From: Bacteroidota bacterium
GTDB lineage: Bacteria; Bacteroidota; Bacteroidia; Chitinophagales; Saprospiraceae
Direction: 5' to 3'
NCBI GenBank assembly: GCA_009908745.1
Contig: JAAAOU010000104.1
Coordinates: 1 to 35,646, forward strand
DNA: 35,646 nucleotides
Every line of letters starts with the position of its first letter. The first letter of the stretch is position 1. The position numbers were made by a program, and so were the translations under genes. Positions 2,372 through 26,822 of this stretch are shown piece after piece. The notes below the pieces were generated by a model that saw only the letters and a list, made by a program, of their open reading frames with translations, was not told the origin of the DNA and did no database searches.

Positions 2372-5229
2372 TGTCTGGGGTTTTTACTGCTTAAGCTATC
2401 GTCCTGTTTCGAAACAGGCGCACATCCTTTGCCTAAGTCGAATACCGAAAGATCAGGGGGTTCTTGTTCTGTAATACTGACCGAGAGTTCCACTTTACGG
2501 TCCGATGCGGCAGCGACGCTGTACCGGGTATTGATCAACATATCGTCGAAATAGCGGACGGTGCCTTTGGGCTCGCCGGAAGGTTGAGGTACGACTTTGA
2601 TACGTCTTCCTACGCCCTTGGGCCTGCGTTTCTGTAGTTTATTCAATTCACTCGTATCGAGGTAATCGCCCAATCGTCGGACGGAGCCTTCTTCGTCCTC
2701 GAGTGTTATGTCTTGCAAAAACTCCGTAATACACTGGATGCGGCGCACGGCGAGACTATCGTTATAAGTCGAATTACCGTGTGTACTACACATACCTCGG
2801 ATATTGATTTCTATGGTTTGGTCAGGCGGCAAGCGGTCAAGCGCCCGCAGCAAGTCTCTGCCAAAGTCGGTAAGTTCACCTAAGCCATTGTCCACTTCGC
2901 GCTGAAAGAAGTCTTCGGCTGCTTCTATGGCGTCATTTTTGGTAGTAATCGTATTGATTATAGACCGCAAATCATCACCATCGGCTCTGCTGTCAGGTTC
3001 CTGCTTTGTGCTGTCTGCTTTGAAATTATTGGGATTGGTGTATAAGGCTTGCCGACCAAGGTAGAAATTGGTGGTTTCCTCTAAGCTTTTCGTAGTGACG
3101 CTGATTCTGTAGCCGTCCCGCTCCGGCTTGTCGTTGTCGAAGTACATATTGGCGGAGAACTGGCTCTTGGCCAGCAATGGAACGGGCACCTCCGCTCTGC
3201 ACACCTTTTGGCAAGCCTTCATGGGAAATACCATATTCTCCAATTCTACCGAGTAGAGGTAGTAGGTATTATCGCTCAAATCGAGAATGTTCCGGTTAGT
3301 ATCCACTTCCACGCCGACGTTTACAACCTCGCCGTAGGGCACACGGAAGATGCTGGAGTCGGGGGCGGCGGCCTCAATCAACTGGTTTTGCCGCGTGCGA
3401 ACGAATGGTTCTGCAATACGCTCCTCGCGGAATGTCTGAATCACCTCCTCTGTAAATTCATTGGGTGCCGGTGGCCTTGGCGGCTCAGGAACGAGCTTCA
3501 GTTCCAAGAAGTCGGGATACTGGGCAAAATCTACCGCTGCGGTCAACGCTTCCCCGTATTGGTCTTCCGACAAATCGATGAGCACAGTAGAGTCCTGTTG
3601 CGCTAAGCCCTCTGTGGCGGCATGAACCCGGTATTTGCGAAAGCGCTTGGCCGGCAGGGTGAGGGTGCTCTGACTGCTGCTGATGGTGGTATCGAGTACG
3701 GTGGTCGTAGCACCACAGATCGTGACATCTTCCACCGTGATGCTGGTACCAGCTACCCCGTATGGCTTGGTCTCGCACTGCGCAAGGTCCAGCTGGATTT
3801 CCCGATCGATATTGCGTTCTAAGACGTATATATCTTGGCAGCAGGCGTTGAGGGAGTCCACAAACCGCATAGATTGGGGGCGGTCGGAGGAAAAATAGAC
3901 TTTACTGCCATCAGGCACGGTGAAGTAATACATATCGTTGTAACCAGAATTTAGTGGCGCACCAGCGTTTTTGGGGGCTTGCCAATCTCCGTTTTCCCAT
4001 TGACTGCTGAATAAGTCGTGTTGGCCGTAGCCGCCGGGCCGGTCAGAGCTAAAGAACAGCTCGCCGGTCAAGCTGTAGAAGAATGGGCTTTGCTCCTGCC
4101 ATTGAGTATTGACAGGCTTTCCCAGGTTTTGCACTGGGCCTACGGTACCCGACTGCGCATCAAAGGGGCTCCGCCAGATGTCGAGGCCGCCTTTGGAGCC
4201 TTCGCGGTTGGACGAGAAGTAGAGCCATTCCTGGCCGTCGCAGTCTTGCATAAAAACAGGCTGCTTGTGAGTAACGTCTTCCTCCGGGTTGTTTAGGGCT
4301 AGCGGTGCAGGGGTGCCCCATTCTCCACTGGGCAGCAGCTGGCGTTTGTACAGTGCACAGACGATTTCGTTTTTCCTGAGTTCACAACCCGTGAATATCA
4401 TCCATTGCCCGTTGCCGCTGATGGCCCGGTGGTTGGTGTATCGATTCGCCTGGTTGTACATCTCGTTTTCCGGTAACTGCCGTACGCTGATGGCAGAATC
4501 ACCGTAAACCGCTTCCAAGTTCCTGGAATAAACCGTGGATTGCCTACGCTCTTTTCTGGGGTAACGCAGCGACGAGAAATAGAGCGTACTGTCTTCCCAT
4601 ACGGGGGCAAAGTCAGAATAACGCGAATTGATCTGCGCATCCGGGATGCGGTAGATGGTATCATAGGGTAAGCTCGCATCGTTTTTCAGGGCAAAGGCGC
4701 AGTTTTCCAAGCCGGCCTCCACACCTAGCCGGTATTGTTCGCGGTAGTCGGCGTCTTGGTGTATCTGCTGCAGCAGGTTGGCGTCAAGCTTTTGAAAAGT
4801 GGCTTGGGCCCGCCGGTAAAGGGAGTCTGCTTCGCTTTTTGCCAGGGATTCGTTTCCTGCCTGTACGAGCTGAGTTTGCGCCAGGTGGTAGACCGCCCGG
4901 GCGTAGACGGAGTCCACGTTATTATCCGCTTCTGATTGCTTGATGACAGAACGGTAAACGGAGTCCGCCCGCTCGAAGTAATTAAAACGCTGGGCGGCCA
5001 GGCCGTACTGTAGTTTCAGGTAACGTTTGCTGCGGTCCTTGCTGTAAAAGCGCTCCTCTTCCTGAAGAACAGTCTCGTAACAGCGGAAAGCCGCGTAGTA
5101 ATCCCGAGACTCAAAAGCTTCATCTCCCACTTCCAGTACCTTGTACAAGGACTGGCCGGAGACGGAAACTGCTGACCCCAACAGGGCAAACAAGGAAACA
5201 ATTGCTGTGATTCTCATTTTCTTCCACAT
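2368..5229 (-). CDS. TPR / PD40 / OmpA-like envelope protein
   Basis: A 953-residue exported protein. Signal peptide at residues 1-25 (ending AVSVSGQ), TPR-like helices at about 28-190, a PD40/WD40-like beta-propeller at about 200-470 with repeated 'LYFSSNREGSKGG' and 'LFFSSDRPGGYG' blades, a small carboxypeptidase-regulatory-like beta domain near 485-570, and a C-terminal OmpA-like domain at about 770-910. Such proteins anchor outer-membrane or T9SS assemblies to peptidoglycan; PorE of T9SS has a comparable domain order. The OmpA motif reads 'IRGMCSTHGNSTYNDSLAVR', so the Asp that normally binds diaminopimelate is Ser815 while the partner Arg (R830) is kept. It lies between a porP-like gene and an SprB-repeat gene on the same strand and overlaps the latter by 4 bp. 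ATG 5229 is used; ATG at residue 5 is possible. Exact role is inferred from architecture and context. Confidence 0.85.
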   Translation of the reverse strand: MWKKMRITAIVSLFALLGSAVSVSGQSLYKVLEVGDEAFESRDYYAAFRCYETVLQEEERFYSKDRSKRYLKLQYGLAAQRFNYFERADSVYRSVIKQSEADNNVDSVYARAVYHLAQTQLVQAGNESLAKSEADSLYRRAQATFQKLDANLLQQIHQDADYREQYRLGVEAGLENCAFALKNDASLPYDTIYRIPDAQINSRYSDFAPVWEDSTLYFSSLRYPRKERRQSTVYSRNLEAVYGDSAISVRQLPENEMYNQANRYTNHRAISGNGQWMIFTGCELRKNEIVCALYKRQLLPSGEWGTPAPLALNNPEEDVTHKQPVFMQDCDGQEWLYFSSNREGSKGGLDIWRSPFDAQSGTVGPVQNLGKPVNTQWQEQSPFFYSLTGELFFSSDRPGGYGQHDLFSSQWENGDWQAPKNAGAPLNSGYNDMYYFTVPDGSKVYFSSDRPQSMRFVDSLNACCQDIYVLERNIDREIQLDLAQCETKPYGVAGTSITVEDVTICGATTTVLDTTISSSQSTLTLPAKRFRKYRVHAATEGLAQQDSTVLIDLSEDQYGEALTAAVDFAQYPDFLELKLVPEPPRPPAPNEFTEEVIQTFREERIAEPFVRTRQNQLIEAAAPDSSIFRVPYGEVVNVGVEVDTNRNILDLSDNTYYLYSVELENMVFPMKACQKVCRAEVPVPLLAKSQFSANMYFDNDKPERDGYRISVTTKSLEETTNFYLGRQALYTNPNNFKADSTKQEPDSRADGDDLRSIINTITTKNDAIEAAEDFFQREVDNGLGELTDFGRDLLRALDRLPPDQTIEINIRGMCSTHGNSTYNDSLAVRRIQCITEFLQDITLEDEEGSVRRLGDYLDTSELNKLQKRRPKGVGRRIKVVPQPSGEPKGTVRYFDDMLINTRYSVAAASDRKVELSVSITEQEPPDLSVFDLGKGCAPVSKQDDSLSSKNPRQ

Positions 5230-7554: not shown

Positions 7555-8562
7555 GTGAAACGAGTAACATTATTTATCATCGCTGCACTGTCGCTTCTAC
7601 AGCTCGGTGCGCAACAAACAGACCGCATCTTCGTGAAGCCGGATGGCAACGGAGATGGCTCTTCTTGGTCATCACCACTTGGTGACCTGCATCAAGCATT
7701 GGCTATGGCTGCGCCAAACTCAGGTACTGAGATTTGGGTAGCGACCGGTGTATACCTTACTACTTCAGGCACTGACCGTAGCCTGTCTTTCCAAATCCCT
7801 AGCGGCATCAAGCTTTACGGTGGCTTTGCCGGACACGAGCAGTCGATTGAGGCTCGCAATATAGAGCATCACCCGACTAAGCTAAGTGGCGAAATAGGCA
7901 TGCCCACTGTAGACGATAATGCCTACACGGTGGTCTATACGAAAAATGCCTCGGAATCTACCCTTATTGATGGCTTCATCATCACCGGCGGCTCGGCGAA
8001 CAAAAAGCTGCCCAATGATCTGGTGACGCCGGAAGTAAGCGGTGCTGGCTGGTACAATATTGCTACGCATGGCACATCTAATCCTACCATCCGCAAGTGC
8101 AAGTTTATCGACAATAACGCCCGCGAGGGTGCTGGCTTCTTCAATCTGGCCGACGGGGGCGAAGCAAGCCCAAGCATAGAGAAATGCCAGTTTATCCGCA
8201 ACATCGCCCGCTTGGATGGAGGTGCTGTATACAACGGTTCTTTCGGTGGCACAAGCACCCCTCGCATCAGCAAGTGCCGTTTCGAGTATAATGTAGCTAC
8301 CTACGGAGCCGGCATACTCAATAAAGCAACTAGCGGCAAAGTCATGACGCTGGTGAAAAGCTGCCAGTTTGTTTCTAACCAAGCCCACTTCCGCGGCGCT
8401 GGTATCTACAACGACTTTTACGGCGAGGGGACTTCAAAATCAATTATGGTGGGCTGCATTTTCGACAAGAACAGCTCTTCAACTGGCGACCCGGTAAGTA
8501 GCCGTTCCAACAGCTACGAGGGTGGCAACGGAGTGGACAACATCAGCCGTAAGGGCTACTAA
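7555..8562 (+). CDS. secreted right-handed beta-helix protein
   Basis: A 335-residue protein with a Sec signal peptide (MKRVTLFIIAALSLLQLGAQ). It opens with 'IFVKPDGNGDGSSWSSPLGD', the usual beginning of parallel beta-helix (DUF1565/polymorphic-outer-membrane-like) proteins, then 'YGGFAGHE' and 'TLIDGFIITGG', followed by at least four coils of about 33 residues each of the type K-C-x-F-x-x-N-x-A-x-x-G-A-G-x-x-N. The frame has no ATG; GTG 7555 is chosen because it starts the signal peptide precisely, whereas TTG 7507 would add 16 hydrophilic residues. There is no T9SS C-terminal domain; the chain ends in 'VDNISRKGY'. A strong terminator follows, so it is a single-gene unit. It may bind or cleave polysaccharide or act as a surface protein; the sequence does not decide this. 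Confidence 0.75.
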   Translation: MKRVTLFIIAALSLLQLGAQQTDRIFVKPDGNGDGSSWSSPLGDLHQALAMAAPNSGTEIWVATGVYLTTSGTDRSLSFQIPSGIKLYGGFAGHEQSIEARNIEHHPTKLSGEIGMPTVDDNAYTVVYTKNASESTLIDGFIITGGSANKKLPNDLVTPEVSGAGWYNIATHGTSNPTIRKCKFIDNNAREGAGFFNLADGGEASPSIEKCQFIRNIARLDGGAVYNGSFGGTSTPRISKCRFEYNVATYGAGILNKATSGKVMTLVKSCQFVSNQAHFRGAGIYNDFYGEGTSKSIMVGCIFDKNSSSTGDPVSSRSNSYEGGNGVDNISRKGY

Positions 8563-20752: not shown

Positions 20753-21559
20753 TCACCCATCCTTCAATACCAGCAAGGGCACTGGGCTGTCGAACACCTC
20801 CTTGGTAGTGGCACTGACGTGAAAAACCTCTTCCAAGAAGCCTCGAGGTCGGCGCAGCATGCAGAGCAGGCTGGCATGAGTGTCTTTCACAAAGCTGTTG
20901 ATACTGGCGTTGATTTCCTCCCGGTCAAGTTCGTAGTGGAAGGAGTGCTCCACTTCCTCGAGATAGAGGTCGATGCTCGGGTCAATACCATCCTGATCGA
21001 AGTCGAGCGCCTGATGGAAAACCCGCACGGGAGCTTGCATTCTTTTTGCCAACTGCAGCAAAGGCTTTATCACCCCCGCGTGGGCAATGCCTTCATCGTC
21101 TACGGCAAACACGATCTGGGTTATTGGCTGGTAGGTAAACCCTTCCGGAATAGCGAGCACCGGGGTTTGCGCCTCTTTGATCACCGAGTTGGTTATGCTG
21201 CCGAGGAAGATTTCGGCCAAGCCGGTGGCTCCTTGCGTACCCATGACAATCAGATCGTATTCCTGCTTGTCGGCCAACTCAGCGATAAGATGAGTGGTAT
21301 CCCCCCTTAAGATTTGGGTGTCGATCTGGCGCCCCGTTTTCAGTTTGGGTTCCACCTGCTTGACGGCCGCCAAAGCCTGTTCGGCGGCATCCTTTTTGAC
21401 AAAAGACTCTACGGAGACGAACATGCCGGAAGTACTGCTCACCGTGTAGGTATGCAGCAGGGTGACTTGGCTATCGAAATGATTAGCAAGGGAAACGGCG
21501 TACGACAACGCATTGAAAGCATTATCGGAAAAGTCGGTAGGCACTAGGATCTTGTTCAT
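20753..21559 (-). CDS. tandem universal stress protein (two Usp domains)
   Basis: 268 residues with two Usp domains, 1-145 and 150-268. The first opens 'MNKILVPTDFSDNAFNALSY' and carries an intact ATP-binding motif G-2X-G-9X-G-S within 'VMGTQGATGLAEIFLGS'. The second starts 'ITQIVFAVDDEG' and ends 'VPLLVLKDG' but lacks a full glycine motif. Such proteins respond to starvation, hypoxia or redox stress. It is transcribed away from the FixL-like kinase gene, and the shared 123-bp region holds two FNR-spaced palindromes, so I infer control by the neighbouring CRP-type response regulator. Confidence 0.88.
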   Translation of the reverse strand: MNKILVPTDFSDNAFNALSYAVSLANHFDSQVTLLHTYTVSSTSGMFVSVESFVKKDAAEQALAAVKQVEPKLKTGRQIDTQILRGDTTHLIAELADKQEYDLIVMGTQGATGLAEIFLGSITNSVIKEAQTPVLAIPEGFTYQPITQIVFAVDDEGIAHAGVIKPLLQLAKRMQAPVRVFHQALDFDQDGIDPSIDLYLEEVEHSFHYELDREEINASINSFVKDTHASLLCMLRRPRGFLEEVFHVSATTKEVFDSPVPLLVLKDG

Positions 21560-21615
21560 GTTGTTGTTGCTTGGCTTGTGCTTTTACAAATTCGCCTCTA
21601 CGCGCAAACCGCAAG

Positions 21616-21629
21616 ATGACAATAATCAA
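21616..21629. promoter_or_regulatory. FNR/CRP-like operator 1 (ATGAC-AATA-ATCAA)
   Basis: Half-sites ATGAC and ATCAA with a 4-bp spacer, the geometry of FNR-class sites. It lies about 40 bp upstream of a possible imperfect -7 (GAATTTG, ending 21587) for the minus-strand stress gene. Centre-to-centre distance to operator 2 is 23 bp. It overlaps the alternative TAAGTTTG element. Confidence 0.45.
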
Positions 21630-21638: not shown

Positions 21639-21652
21639 GTGACTTTTGTCAT
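21639..21652. promoter_or_regulatory. FNR/CRP-like operator 2 (GTGAC-TTTT-GTCAT)
   Basis: A perfect TGAC-N4-GTCA palindrome between the divergent stress and kinase genes. Its centre (21645.5) is about 41 bp upstream of the start expected from TAACTTCG (21676-21683), which is one base from the -7 consensus for the plus-strand kinase gene; that is the classic class II activator position. The same palindrome recurs at 26809-26822. Confidence 0.5.
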
Positions 21653-21682
21653 CGCCTGAGTGGCCGCCCGTCTTCTAACTTC

Positions 21683-23434
21683 GTGGGCAATATTGTCTAT
21701 TACGGACTGTCGCATTTGCCAACAATTATTCAAGATTTGAGCTCGTTTGACCAAAACAACAGGAATGGTACCGATGCTGCCTCGCAGTTAGAAGCTATTA
21801 TCGAAACGGCTACCGATGGCATCATCACCATTAATGAGAGCGGGGTCATAGAACTCGTCAACCCCGCTGCGGCACAGCTGTTTGGCTACAGCCAAGAGGA
21901 ACTGCTCGGCCGCAGCATCAATCAGCTTATGCCCTCCCCGCACGCGCAGCAACACGACAATTACCTGCAGCGGTACATGCAGACCGGGGAGGCCCGCATC
22001 ATCGGCATAGGCCGGGAAGTGAAAGGCAAAAAGAAGGACGGCACGCTTTTCCCCATCCGCCTGAGTATAAGCGAAGTGCCTACGAAGCAAGGCAAACGGC
22101 TATTCACGGGCATCGTGCACGACTTGACGCAGCAGAAGCAGACGGAACACGCGCTTAAAGTAGAAAAGGACCGCGCCCAGCGCTACTTGGATATTGCCAA
22201 CACCGTCATCGTAGCGATTGACCGGGAAGGCAAAGTGCAGCTGCTGAACGAAGAAGGCTGCCGCATGCTGGAGGTGGAAGAGGCCGAAGTGCTCGGGCGG
22301 GACTGGATACCGTTCGCGGTGCCGCCGCAGTATCAAGAGGAAATGCAAGTTGTTTTCAAAGCCCTGCTACAGGGGCGCAGTATCGACTATTACGAAAACC
22401 ACCTGCAGTCCAAATCTGGCAAACAGTACCTCGTTGCCTGGCACAATTCCGTGCTGCGGGGTGACGACGGGCAAATCATAGCCACCCTCAGCTCCGGCAT
22501 CGACATCACGGCGCAGCGCAAAGCCGAGGAGCACATCAGCCAGCTGAATACCGAGCTGGAAAAGCGGGTAGAGGCGCGGACCGACGAGCTTTCCGAAGTC
22601 GTCAACAAGCTGCTGTCCATCAACAAACAGCTCAAACACGAAATCTCCGAACGCGAAGCCGCCGAAGCCGCCCTGCGCCAAAACGAGCAGCAGCTCAAGT
22701 CCTCGCTGGAAAAGGAAAAAGAGCTCAACGCCCTCAAGTCCCGCTTTGTCTCTATGGCGTCGCACGAGTTCCGGACCCCGCTGAGCACCATACTGTCCTC
22801 TGCGGACCTGATTGAAGCCTATGAGCAAGTGGAGCAGCAAGCCAAGCGGGTGCGGCATACTAAACGCATTAAGTCCTCTGTGGCCAACCTGACGAGCATC
22901 CTCAATGACTTTCTGTCCCTCAGCAAACTGGAGGAAGGGAATATTGCGGCCCAATTCACCCACTTCTGGCTCCCCGAAGTATGGGCCGAAGTGCACGAAG
23001 GCGTACAAGGGCTCCGCAAGAGCGGGCAGGACATCCGCATCAGCGGCCTGGAAAAGGTAGACCACGAGCTGTACACCGACAAACGCATGCTGCGCAATAT
23101 CTTTTACAATTTACTGTCCAATGCCCTGAAGTATTCCGAAGAGAACAGCCCGGTGGATTGCCGGCTGTCCCTAGAAGACGATGAGTTGCACATAGAGATA
23201 CAAGACTACGGCATAGGCATACCGGAAGAAGAGCAGCAGCATTTGTTCACCCGCTTCTTCCGCGCCCATAATGTCGAAAACATTCAGGGGACCGGCCTAG
23301 GCCTCAATATTGTAAAAGGCTACACCGAGCTTATGGGCGGCCAGGTCGAACTGCAAAGCCAATTGGGCGAGGGCACCACGGTACGCATCACGCTGCCCAC
23401 CCGCGCCGAAGCCCTTATACATGAACCAAATTAA
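21683..23434 (+). CDS. sensor histidine kinase with FixL-like heme PAS domain
   Basis: A soluble 583-residue kinase. PAS1 spans about 34-150 and follows FixL closely: 'LFGYSQEELLGRSINQLMPS', then H91 in 'QQHDNYLQRYMQTGEARIIG', R97 and R111 in 'GIGREVKG', and 'KKDGTLFPIRLSISEV'. These match, without gaps, the FixL heme-ligand His200 and Arg206/Arg220. PAS2 spans about 165-275, a coiled coil 280-345, HisKA about 350-415 with His361 in 'SMASHEFRTPLS', and the ATPase about 465-575 with 'NLLSNALKYS', 'DYGIGIP' and 'GTGLGLNIVKGY'. There are no membrane segments. I infer an oxygen or redox sensor that phosphorylates the REC-CRP regulator 12 bp downstream. The start is uncertain: GTG 21683 is the longest; in-frame TTG at 21716 or 21737 would keep all domains and would fit better if transcription starts near 21687. 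Confidence 0.88.
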   Translation: MGNIVYYGLSHLPTIIQDLSSFDQNNRNGTDAASQLEAIIETATDGIITINESGVIELVNPAAAQLFGYSQEELLGRSINQLMPSPHAQQHDNYLQRYMQTGEARIIGIGREVKGKKKDGTLFPIRLSISEVPTKQGKRLFTGIVHDLTQQKQTEHALKVEKDRAQRYLDIANTVIVAIDREGKVQLLNEEGCRMLEVEEAEVLGRDWIPFAVPPQYQEEMQVVFKALLQGRSIDYYENHLQSKSGKQYLVAWHNSVLRGDDGQIIATLSSGIDITAQRKAEEHISQLNTELEKRVEARTDELSEVVNKLLSINKQLKHEISEREAAEAALRQNEQQLKSSLEKEKELNALKSRFVSMASHEFRTPLSTILSSADLIEAYEQVEQQAKRVRHTKRIKSSVANLTSILNDFLSLSKLEEGNIAAQFTHFWLPEVWAEVHEGVQGLRKSGQDIRISGLEKVDHELYTDKRMLRNIFYNLLSNALKYSEENSPVDCRLSLEDDELHIEIQDYGIGIPEEEQQHLFTRFFRAHNVENIQGTGLGLNIVKGYTELMGGQVELQSQLGEGTTVRITLPTRAEALIHEPN

Positions 23435-23446
23435 CAACAAGCACTG

Positions 23447-24493
23447 ATGATGAAAAAGATACTCGTAGTTGAAGACAACGCCGAAGTACGCGAAAACCTG
23501 GAGGAAATATTGGAGCTTTCGGGCTACGAAGTCGTGACGGCCGAAGACGGAAAGGTGGGGGTGGAAAAAGCTTTGAAAAACCCACCGGACCTGATCCTTT
23601 GCGATGTCATGATGCCACAGCTCGACGGCTTTGGCGTGCTCAACATCCTCAGCAAGAAAAGCGCTACCGCTAATGTACCTTTCGTTTTCCTCACCGCCAA
23701 GACGGAGAAGAGCGACCTGCGCCGGGGGATGAACCTCGGAGCGGACGACTACGTCACCAAGCCTTTCTACAAGGACGAGCTGCTAGACGTGATTGACACC
23801 CGCCTCAAAAAGAGCGAGAAGCTGCGCAAGCAGTTTGACAAGACCGATCAGGGGCTTTCCGCATTCATCAACGAAGCCAAAGGCTACGAAGAACTGCAAA
23901 AATTGCCCAACGAACGCAAAATCAAGCACTACAAGCGCCGGGATATCATCTTTGAAGAAGGCGACTACCCCCGCTACCTGTACTTCGTCAAATCGGGCAA
24001 AGTAAAGATTTTCAAAACCAACGAAGACGGCAAGGAATACATCATCGACATCAACAAAACGGGCGATTTTTTCGGTTACCTGGACCTCATCAAGCACGAC
24101 AAGTACACCGAGTCTGCCGCCGCTATGGAGGAGACCGAGATCAGCCTAATCCCCAAGGAGGATTTTGTGAAGCTGCTCAACGCCAACCGCGACGTGGCCT
24201 CGCAGTTGATCAAAATGCTGGCGGATAATGTCTCGGAAAAAGAAGAACAGCTGCTGAACTTAGCCTACAACTCCGTACGCCGCCGGGTAGCCGACGCCAT
24301 ACTGCTGCTGAGCCAAAAGCAGGAAGACGGCTCCATCAGCATCCTGCGCGATGACCTGGCGCGGATTGTGGGCACTGCCAAGGAGAGCGTTATCCGGATG
24401 CTGACGGAGTTCAAAGAGGACGGCTACATCAAAGTGGTGGACGGGGCGATTTATATTGAGGATGCGGAGGGGCTGGAGAACATGCATGCCTGA
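23447..24493 (+). CDS. response regulator: receiver domain fused to CRP/FNR-type DNA-binding protein
   Basis: 348 residues. The receiver spans 1-125 with acidic pocket E9/D10, phospho-acceptor D53 in 'LILCDVMMPQLDGF', Thr in 'FLTAKT' and Lys in 'DDYVTKPF'. A cyclic-nucleotide-binding-like domain spans about 155-265 ('IIFEEGDYPRYLYFVKSGKV', 'GDFFGYLDLI'), but where cAMP receptors have R-S-A it reads T-E-S-A, so it probably binds no cAMP. A winged helix lies at about 280-345; recognition-helix residues E313 and R317 in 'GTAKESVIRMLTEF' match the Glu/Arg that read TGA half-sites in CRP and FNR. ATG 23447 or the next codon. Phosphorylation by the upstream kinase presumably replaces the small-molecule signal. 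No terminator seen before the convergent TonB receptor. Confidence 0.92.
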   Translation: MMKKILVVEDNAEVRENLEEILELSGYEVVTAEDGKVGVEKALKNPPDLILCDVMMPQLDGFGVLNILSKKSATANVPFVFLTAKTEKSDLRRGMNLGADDYVTKPFYKDELLDVIDTRLKKSEKLRKQFDKTDQGLSAFINEAKGYEELQKLPNERKIKHYKRRDIIFEEGDYPRYLYFVKSGKVKIFKTNEDGKEYIIDINKTGDFFGYLDLIKHDKYTESAAAMEETEISLIPKEDFVKLLNANRDVASQLIKMLADNVSEKEEQLLNLAYNSVRRRVADAILLLSQKQEDGSISILRDDLARIVGTAKESVIRMLTEFKEDGYIKVVDGAIYIEDAEGLENMHA

Positions 24494-26598: not shown

Positions 26599-26760
26599 CT
26601 AGGCGCTTTGGTGCTCTCTTTCGGAGCCAGCAGTTGCTCTGCCGCGGTCTAAGTAGAAGAAGTATAGCAGTGTCGCTGTAGAAAGTATAAGCAACCACCA
26701 CTGTGCCGAAATGCCGGCCAACAATCCTACCAAGATCAGCAAAAAGTACCGCTGTATCAT
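26599..26760 (-). CDS. small membrane protein, 53 residues
   Basis: ATG 26760 begins MIQRYFLLILVGLLAGISAQ, followed by WWLLILSTATLLYFFYLDRG and a short polar tail (RATAGSEREHQSA). Two transmembrane helices with a very short turn and a cytosolic tail are predicted by eye. I recognise no family. What supports a real gene is its context: an exact TAnnTTTG element 19 bp before the ATG, an FNR-like palindrome at the class II distance from it, and terminators on both sides, so it is an independent, probably regulated unit. The longer frame beginning at 26832 would run through the promoter and is rejected. It may be a redox- or oxygen-responsive membrane peptide; this is inference. Confidence 0.55.
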   Translation of the reverse strand: MIQRYFLLILVGLLAGISAQWWLLILSTATLLYFFYLDRGRATAGSEREHQSA

Positions 26761-26778: not shown

Positions 26779-26786
26779 CAAAGGTA
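26779..26786 (-). promoter_or_regulatory. -7 element of the small membrane protein gene
   Basis: TACCTTTG on the minus strand is an exact TAnnTTTG. No proper TTG lies at the -33 distance (only TTTTC), as expected of an activator-dependent promoter. Start predicted near 26774, leader about 14 nt. Confidence 0.5.
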
Positions 26787-26808: not shown

Positions 26809-26822
26809 ATGACATTTGTCAA
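26809..26822. promoter_or_regulatory. FNR/CRP-like operator 3 (ATGAC-ATTT-GTCAA)
   Basis: A perfect TGAC-N4-GTCA palindrome with a further A on the right half, the best FNR-like match of the three. Its centre is about 41 bp upstream of the transcription start predicted for the small membrane protein, the class II activator position, and it takes the place of the missing -33 element. It shares its core with operators 1 and 2 at the kinase/stress-protein locus. Confidence 0.5.

Follow-up and report, generated by a model that had tools for sequence, protein, structure and literature searches.

A heme-PAS kinase and a receiver-CRP fusion regulator as a candidate low-oxygen switch acting on tandem FNR/FixK-type operators in Bacteroidota

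A stretch of 35,646 nucleotides from a Saprospiraceae genome (Bacteroidota; assembly GCA_009908745.1, contig JAAAOU010000104.1; hereafter the window) carries a gene pair encoding a histidine kinase with a FixL-like heme-PAS domain and a response regulator in which a receiver is fused to a CRP/FNR-type protein. We put at roughly 0.7 the probability that the two form a low-oxygen two-component switch that directly activates genes for cbb3 oxidase, heme synthesis and universal stress proteins (Usp). The argument is drawn from the domains, residues, synteny, operator, spacing, promoter geometry and co-occurrence that can be read in the genomes. An initial annotation had described both open reading frames (ORFs) and a divergent usp gene, and all three are present:

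20753 to 21559, minus strand: usp gene (Pfam Usp, 1.3e-36), divergent from the kinase gene; proposed target, with the composite operator in common
21587 to 21594, minus strand: candidate -7 box of the usp promoter, CGAATTTG; 2 mismatches to TAnnTTTG, 22 bp off box 1; weak alone
21617 to 21628, no strand: operator box 1, TGACAATAATCA; tandem partner at 23 bp
21640 to 21651, no strand: operator box 2, TGACTTTTGTCA; an identical box lies in the ccoNO promoter of the same genome
21676 to 21683, plus strand: candidate -7 box of the kinase promoter, TAACTTCG; 1 mismatch, 24 bp off box 2
21683 to 23434, plus strand: histidine kinase, PAS-PAS-HisKA-HATPase, with annotated GTG start (TTG at 21716 or 21737 likelier from the promoter position)
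21785 to 22156, plus strand: PAS1, predicted FixL-like heme PAS domain; His91 codon at 21953-21955
22187 to 22492, plus strand: PAS2, an ordinary PAS domain (PAS domain search)
22736 to 23404, plus strand: HisKA and HATPase_c (Pfam)
23447 to 24493, plus strand: receiver-CRP/FNR response regulator, 348 aa (ORF and Pfam)
23459 to 23794, plus strand: receiver domain (Pfam); phospho-acceptor Asp53 at 23603-23605
23924 to 24187, plus strand: cNMP-binding fold without the cAMP-binding Arg (Pfam and alignment)
24284 to 24481, plus strand: Crp-type helix-turn-helix (HTH; Pfam); Glu313 and Arg317 invariant

The first PAS domain of the kinase resembles FixL both in sequence and in predicted fold. Among PDB sequences, the best match of PAS1 (residues 35-158) was the FixL heme PAS (116 bits, 1.1e-32), followed by the heme PAS domains of DosP (65.6 bits at best) and 10jx (FG214; 46.7 bits), with LOV and other PAS domains at 36.7 bits or less. 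His91, Arg97 and Arg111 align to FixL His200, Arg206 and Arg220 with exact spacing, as the initial annotation had it. An AlphaFold2 model of PAS1, built from seven alignment rows (pLDDT 86.5), places His91 in a long helix (slice residues 61-77, protein residues 85-101). When this model was compared with the PDB by Foldseek, the top 29 matches were all heme PAS domains (20 FixL, 8 DosP/Ec DOS and 1 FG214), and LOV domains first appeared at rank 30. The idea that PAS1 might lie closer to non-heme PAS domains thus fails on both counts, and PAS1 probably binds heme. As in FixL, a HisKA and HATPase_c core is present, and a crude check found no transmembrane-like stretch. The adjoining gene is not a cognate FixJ (receiver and LuxR-type HTH), since it encodes a receiver and a CRP-type protein.

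Among 13 PAS matches in the same genome, the only other one with a full FixL alignment including the His belongs to a second kinase of 661 aa (L315, G000:C360, 4556-6541, +), with the PAS motif HDGYLDNY...IIGVGREV. A lone receiver with 47% likeness to the regulator's is encoded nearby (3680-4045, -), and a single TGAY-N4-RTCA box stands at 4415. Cross-talk with the pair, or a phosphate sink, is possible.

The regulator is a receiver joined to a CRP/FNR-type protein, again as first described. Pfam matched Response_reg, cNMP_binding and HTH_Crp_2 in it, along with two PAS domains, HisKA and HATPase_c in the kinase and Usp in the divergent protein. HTH_Crp_2 and Crp were the only HTH matches in the regulator, and the LuxR/GerE HTH of FixJ was not found by Pfam. 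The cNMP-binding fold and the Crp HTH with its Glu and Arg are those of FixK/FNR in the CRP superfamily; the N-terminal receiver separates the protein from one-component, stand-alone members of that group. Asp10, Asp53 and Lys105 of the receiver are invariant in 60/60 aligned regulators, as are Glu313 and Arg317, which we take to be recognition-helix residues of the CRP-type HTH. With the CRP columns placed by eye, Tyr211 and Glu222 replace the Glu and Arg of the cAMP pocket, and position 222, presumably equivalent to CRP Arg82, is E or D in 57/60; the loss of the key Arg noted initially is therefore upheld. The only Cys among the 348 residues is C52, within the receiver, and the N-terminal Cys cluster of 4Fe-4S FNR is absent from the protein. 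By its domains and residues, the regulator belongs to neither FixJ nor stand-alone FixK/FNR, though it would work like FixLJ-FixK.

With presence defined as E <= 1e-60 to the window protein, 56 of a sample of 395 genomes of the phylum have the regulator, all of them among the 98 genomes of the window's class. Sixty matches besides that of the window were fetched with 9-14 kb each, and 59 were analysed gene by gene; L061, where the ORF picker missed the regulator, was kept in the dyad and spacing counts and left out of the gene-based ones. A same-strand kinase matching that of the window (>150 bits) lies directly upstream of the regulator in 52/59 loci, and the kinase and regulator ORFs overlap in 33 of those 52. 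Neighbours were labelled by BLAST to 19 reference proteins, most of them named by NCBIfam or Pfam and the Usp references by match to the window's Usp; specificity is lowest for the CcoI and CcoS labels. As raw counts with no chance control, cco-labelled genes occur in 23/59 loci (17 with CcoN/NO/P/G/H), hemN in 12/59 and Usp in 21/59.

The operator emerged from a dyad search of the fetched loci, covering 500 intergenic stretches (109 kb). Compared with first-order Markov shuffles, TGAT-N4-ATCA was found 82 times (4.2 expected) and TGAC-N4-GTCA 31 times (0.7 expected); we take TGAY-N4-RTCA to be an FNR/FixK-type box. A perfect box lies within -300 to +60 of the first gene of the operon in 33/59 loci, against 0 in a backward-read control and 1.6 in shuffles. 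These boxes come in pairs. In the 60 loci, the window and the cbb3 locus of its genome, at distances up to 120, perfect boxes stand 22 bp apart, start to start, in 25 pairs and 23 bp apart in 4, no other distance exceeding 4; with one mismatch allowed in the partner, there are 76 pairs at 22 bp and at most 9 at any other distance. The -7 box of Bacteroidota promoters is given as TAnnTTTG, from -12 to -5, in the available part of PMC9723704. With one mismatch or fewer, it stands at a gap of 23 bp from a box in 109/404 site-orientations (mean 5.2 per position) and at 45 bp, the distal place, in 47/404; the highest values for the reversed word, used as a control, are 20 (gap 0) and 17 (gap 26). 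Taken together, the 22-bp spacing and the 23-bp gap put the box centres at about -41.5 and -63.5. This predicted composite operator, with two TGAY-N4-RTCA boxes usually 22 bp apart and a -7 box 23 bp further, is new.

The same geometry recurs in a second set, comprising arrays picked by the tandem pattern alone among those listed for genomes that have the regulator and lack a Cys-type FNR; the window's own genome and the loci used above were excluded. Here 37/38 arrays lie outside ORFs, and of the 76 sides 27 carry a -7 box at gap 23, compared with a per-position mean of 0.96. Three arrays (L289, L291 and L302) have a -7 box at gap 23 on both sides, which suggests that each serves two divergent genes, and the window array likely does the same for usp and the kinase gene. 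The 46 first genes were selected manually from the list, whether or not a -7 box was present. Their Pfam families include Usp (7), P-type ATPase (4), CBS (3), CcoNO (2) and flavodoxin (2), with ferrochelatase, glutamyl-tRNA reductase, Hsp20 and others once each (among 25 of 38 families). One array lies between the ferrochelatase and glutamyl-tRNA reductase genes and has no -7 box at gaps 18-29.

In the genome of the window, the array between the kinase and usp genes (TGACAATAATCA at 21617 and TGACTTTTGTCA at 21640) has its counterpart before ccoNO, whose FixO part is a Pfam match, where TGACCATTATCA and TGACTTTTGTCA are likewise 23 bp apart. The genome holds five exact arrays and four more with one mismatch at 23-bp spacing. 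Aside from the window and ccoNO arrays, these stand in front of a CBS-Usp operon, a Usp gene with a CBS gene behind it, a rhodanese-MBL gene from which a GMC oxidoreductase gene diverges, a TonB-like gene and a gene that resembles sdhC on inspection but has no Pfam match; for one array no target is evident, and another falls within an ORF. The hemN gene has a single perfect box 45 bp before TACTTTTG, which is the distal place. Within two mismatches there are 21 arrays and 8 in a backward control, so the weaker ones are partly due to chance. No Cys-type FNR was found in this genome, where the sole match at 1e-30 is the regulator itself, and the N-terminal Cys cluster is absent from the four other CRP-like proteins read (of five matches).

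Across the 395 genomes, exact arrays (10 or 11 bp between the boxes) were found in 65, and in 2 in the backward control. They occur in 39/56 genomes with the regulator and 26/339 without it, two or more arrays in 28/56 and 4/339; within the window's class, the figures for one or more are 39/56 and 9/42. Fisher values, which ignore kinship, are 2e-23 for the phylum and 2e-6 for the class. Genomes were also sorted by FNR, scored from hand-picked stand-alone matches at 1e-30 or better that start at query residue 7 or earlier. Again with kinship ignored, arrays are found in 28/35 genomes with the regulator only (3.09 per genome), 11/21 with both (1.38), 10/47 with FNR only (0.45) and 16/292 with neither (0.05). 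The array is thus common to two protein designs, judged by its genomic company, and most of it goes with the fusion. We also weighed, and dismissed, the idea that the fusion and Cys-type FNR never occur together: 21/395 genomes have both.

In the 59 analysed loci, the base adjoining TGA varies with residue 316 of the regulator, C with Ile and G with Ser or Thr; half-site C/G counts are 78/24 for Ile and 10/54 for Ser/Thr. This co-change of protein and DNA is only suggestive, because it comprises two independent contrasts.

The pair is also found on plasmids. On pHsw1 of Hymenobacter swuensis its neighbours include truncated hemoglobin genes, a heavy-metal ATPase gene, ccoS and ccoN; pairs of boxes at 23-bp spacing precede both the ATPase-ccoS genes (8895/8918) and ccoN (11610/11633). 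Two group III truncated hemoglobins are located beside the pair (L281, 7092-8287, 7586), one of them with a single TGAY-N4-RTCA box upstream, at 7586. On an H. psoromatis plasmid the pair sits two genes from cytochrome bd genes, and a Runella rosea plasmid carries it with no cbb3-, bd- or hemoglobin-like neighbours in the stretch seen. In these three records the regulator is annotated merely as 'response regulator' or 'transcriptional regulator'. Among the best 80 loci listed in a contig scan across genomes, 8 match the regulator full length, all titled Bacteroidota; the others are mostly receiver-only matches.

How would such a switch work? By analogy with FixL, O2 would leave the heme of the soluble kinase when oxygen is low, and the deoxy-heme kinase would be turned on and phosphorylate Asp53 of the regulator. 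Phospho-receivers would then join, steadying two neighbouring CRP-type dimers on boxes 22-23 bp apart, with centres near -41.5 and -63.5 and the near dimer at the class II place, and transcription would rise. The targets would be the cbb3 oxidase, heme-synthesis and Usp/CBS genes and the kinase-regulator operon, with no separate fixK step; self-activation is probable, since that operon carries an array. Heme, O2 as the signal, phosphotransfer, binding of the regulator to the operator, cooperativity and the sign of regulation are the parts of this scheme that we infer. The initial proposal of a cascade shortened by one step gains support from the tandem boxes before the cbb3 operon and the kinase/usp pair of this genome and, as far as sequence comparison goes, from the way the array follows the regulator across the phylum.

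The closest parallel is the FixL-FixJ-FixK cascade of rhizobia, which likewise combines a FixL-type heme PAS kinase, FNR/FixK-type operators and cbb3 (fixNOP), fixGHI-like and hemN targets. In contrast to that system, receiver and CRP-type activator are one protein here, the LuxR-type HTH and the separate fixK step are missing, the operator is tandem, the host belongs to the Bacteroidota, and Usp/CBS genes are among the targets. In hFixL-FxkR-FixK of Rhizobium leguminosarum, a heme kinase also leads to a CRP-family activator of fixNOQP, but there FixK stands as a protein of its own, with expression induced through FxkR, according to the available part of PMC7888657. Fnr (4Fe-4S), including stand-alone Cys-bearing forms in related genomes, carries a related CRP/HTH domain and occurs in some genomes together with the same array; unlike the regulator here, it has no receiver and no kinase, and from its Cys pattern O2 would be read by its own cluster. 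NmpRSTU of Myxococcus xanthus, as described in the accessible part of PMC11841059, connects a heme-based kinase to cbb3 and hemN in hypoxia, but with a globin sensor, a multi-protein relay and an NtrC-type output. Among the papers listed in a search of titles and abstract starts, with subscription journals largely outside it, none describes a fusion of receiver and CRP or, in Bacteroidota, a kinase of the FixL type.

Several observations weigh against the proposed switch or limit its reach. No perfect box stands at the operon front in 26/59 loci, 17/56 regulator-positive genomes have no exact array, and in 7/59 loci the regulator is not immediately preceded by a same-strand kinase. Since the genomes are related, the Fisher values overstate independence. 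The usp -7 box of the window has 2 mismatches, the ccoNO promoter of the same genome has none within 1 mismatch, and the structure model of the regulator is poor (pLDDT 74, pTM 0.40). The expected conservation of H91 in orthologs was borne out, with one qualification. The PAS alignment to FixL has 52 rows, comprising the window and 51 linked kinases (L049, where the kinase is divergent, and L079 have no row). The His200 column is retained in 50/52 (exceptions L071, Tyr, and L052, Leu) and Arg220 in 39/52, but only 18 rows, window included, are strictly FixL-like (His 18/18, Arg220 18/18, Arg206 9/18). The other 34 form a second subtype (His 32/34, Arg220 21/34, Arg206 1/34), and from these Arg counts heme may not be general. 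One PAS domain of this subtype matched 14 distinct PDB sequences, all FixL, DosP/Ec DOS or FG214 entries. Mapped onto a tree of 60 regulators, the FixL-like label takes three changes, compared with 15.5 when shuffled. The second subtype has the motif H..H...F...R.MG.GRDL, for example in L040, L043 and L045.

Could the heme PAS report another signal, such as NO, CO, redox or heme itself, with the regulator running a wider Usp/CBS/Hsp20 stress programme that includes cbb3? Downstream of arrays, Usp is the most frequent family (7/46), CBS, flavodoxin, Hsp20 and YceI are present, and some heme PAS domains answer redox or other ligands, by the accessible part of PMC13060918. However, cbb3, CcoI-type ATPase, ferrochelatase and glutamyl-tRNA reductase genes also adjoin arrays, and PAS1 keeps the distal Arg of FixL; we consider this unlikely. 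That the pair is an ordinary two-component system, its FixL likeness a general PAS property without heme, appears extremely improbable. FixL-like PAS stretches do turn up in plasmid records (830, across many genera), one of those listed within a GGDEF phosphodiesterase, but the top 29 Foldseek matches, all heme PAS domains, and the two fully FixL-aligned domains among 13 in the genome speak for heme, and the operators, synteny and cbb3 linkage would be left to explain.

The tandem operators might also belong to other CRP/FNR proteins, above all stand-alone Cys-type FNR, the receiver-CRP protein being a mere neighbour. Arrays occur in the 10/47 FNR-only genomes noted above. Four regulator-negative genomes have two or more, and each of these holds a stand-alone CRP/FNR relative with N-terminal Cys in an FNR-like pattern, so the fusion is not alone in having the array; the CRP part of the stand-alone relatives is 30-43% identical. 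Cys residues were read in relatives L145-L155 only: L145-L152 are stand-alone CRP/FNR proteins with N-terminal Cys pairs, from genomes with the tandem array and without the fusion, and L153-L155 (three genomes, one array each) lack such pairs. On the other hand, genomes with the regulator and no FNR are the richest in arrays, ahead of those with both, the window's own genome shows no Cys-type FNR, and the base beside TGA goes with residue 316, for what two contrasts are worth. This explanation is quite improbable, and the heme-PAS switch remains the preferred one.

Two further points concern the window itself. The -7 box of the kinase promoter (21676-21683) overlaps the GTG codon, so translation probably starts at TTG 21716 or 21737. 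The residue numbers of the initial annotation (H91, R97, R111) are correct on the annotated GTG frame and would drop by 11 or 18 with a TTG start. An additional site lies downstream of the pair:

26810 to 26821, no strand: single box, TGACATTTGTCA, with an exact -7 box TACCTTTG (26779-26786, minus strand) at the canonical 23 bp

No tandem partner was found for it within 2 mismatches. The ORF downstream of this site (26599-26760, -; 53 aa, MIQRYFLL..., small membrane-protein-like) is likely a further target. An Rfam scan of the window at gathering thresholds gave no match.

A broader view may be offered tentatively, at a little short of an even chance. A fused FixJ-FixK under a heme-PAS kinase would be a general microaerobic master switch of aerobic Bacteroidia, acting through phosphorylation-driven pairs of CRP dimers on the -41.5/-63.5 double operator, and would in some lineages take the place that Fe-S FNR has in others on the same operator. 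The sensor would thereby have moved from the Fe-S cluster in the activator to heme in the kinase, with no rewriting of operators. In Flavobacterium psychrophilum, cbb3 and heme synthesis go up at low O2, and the available text of PMC9723704 names no regulator for this response. If the proposed switch is real, much of the aerobic Bacteroidota gains a candidate regulator for low oxygen, together with a predicted regulon and an operator readable by eye, and the switching on of cbb3 respiration in this phylum becomes testable. A two-protein cascade would have collapsed into one protein, which could serve as a model system for phosphorylation-driven pairing of CRP-type dimers.

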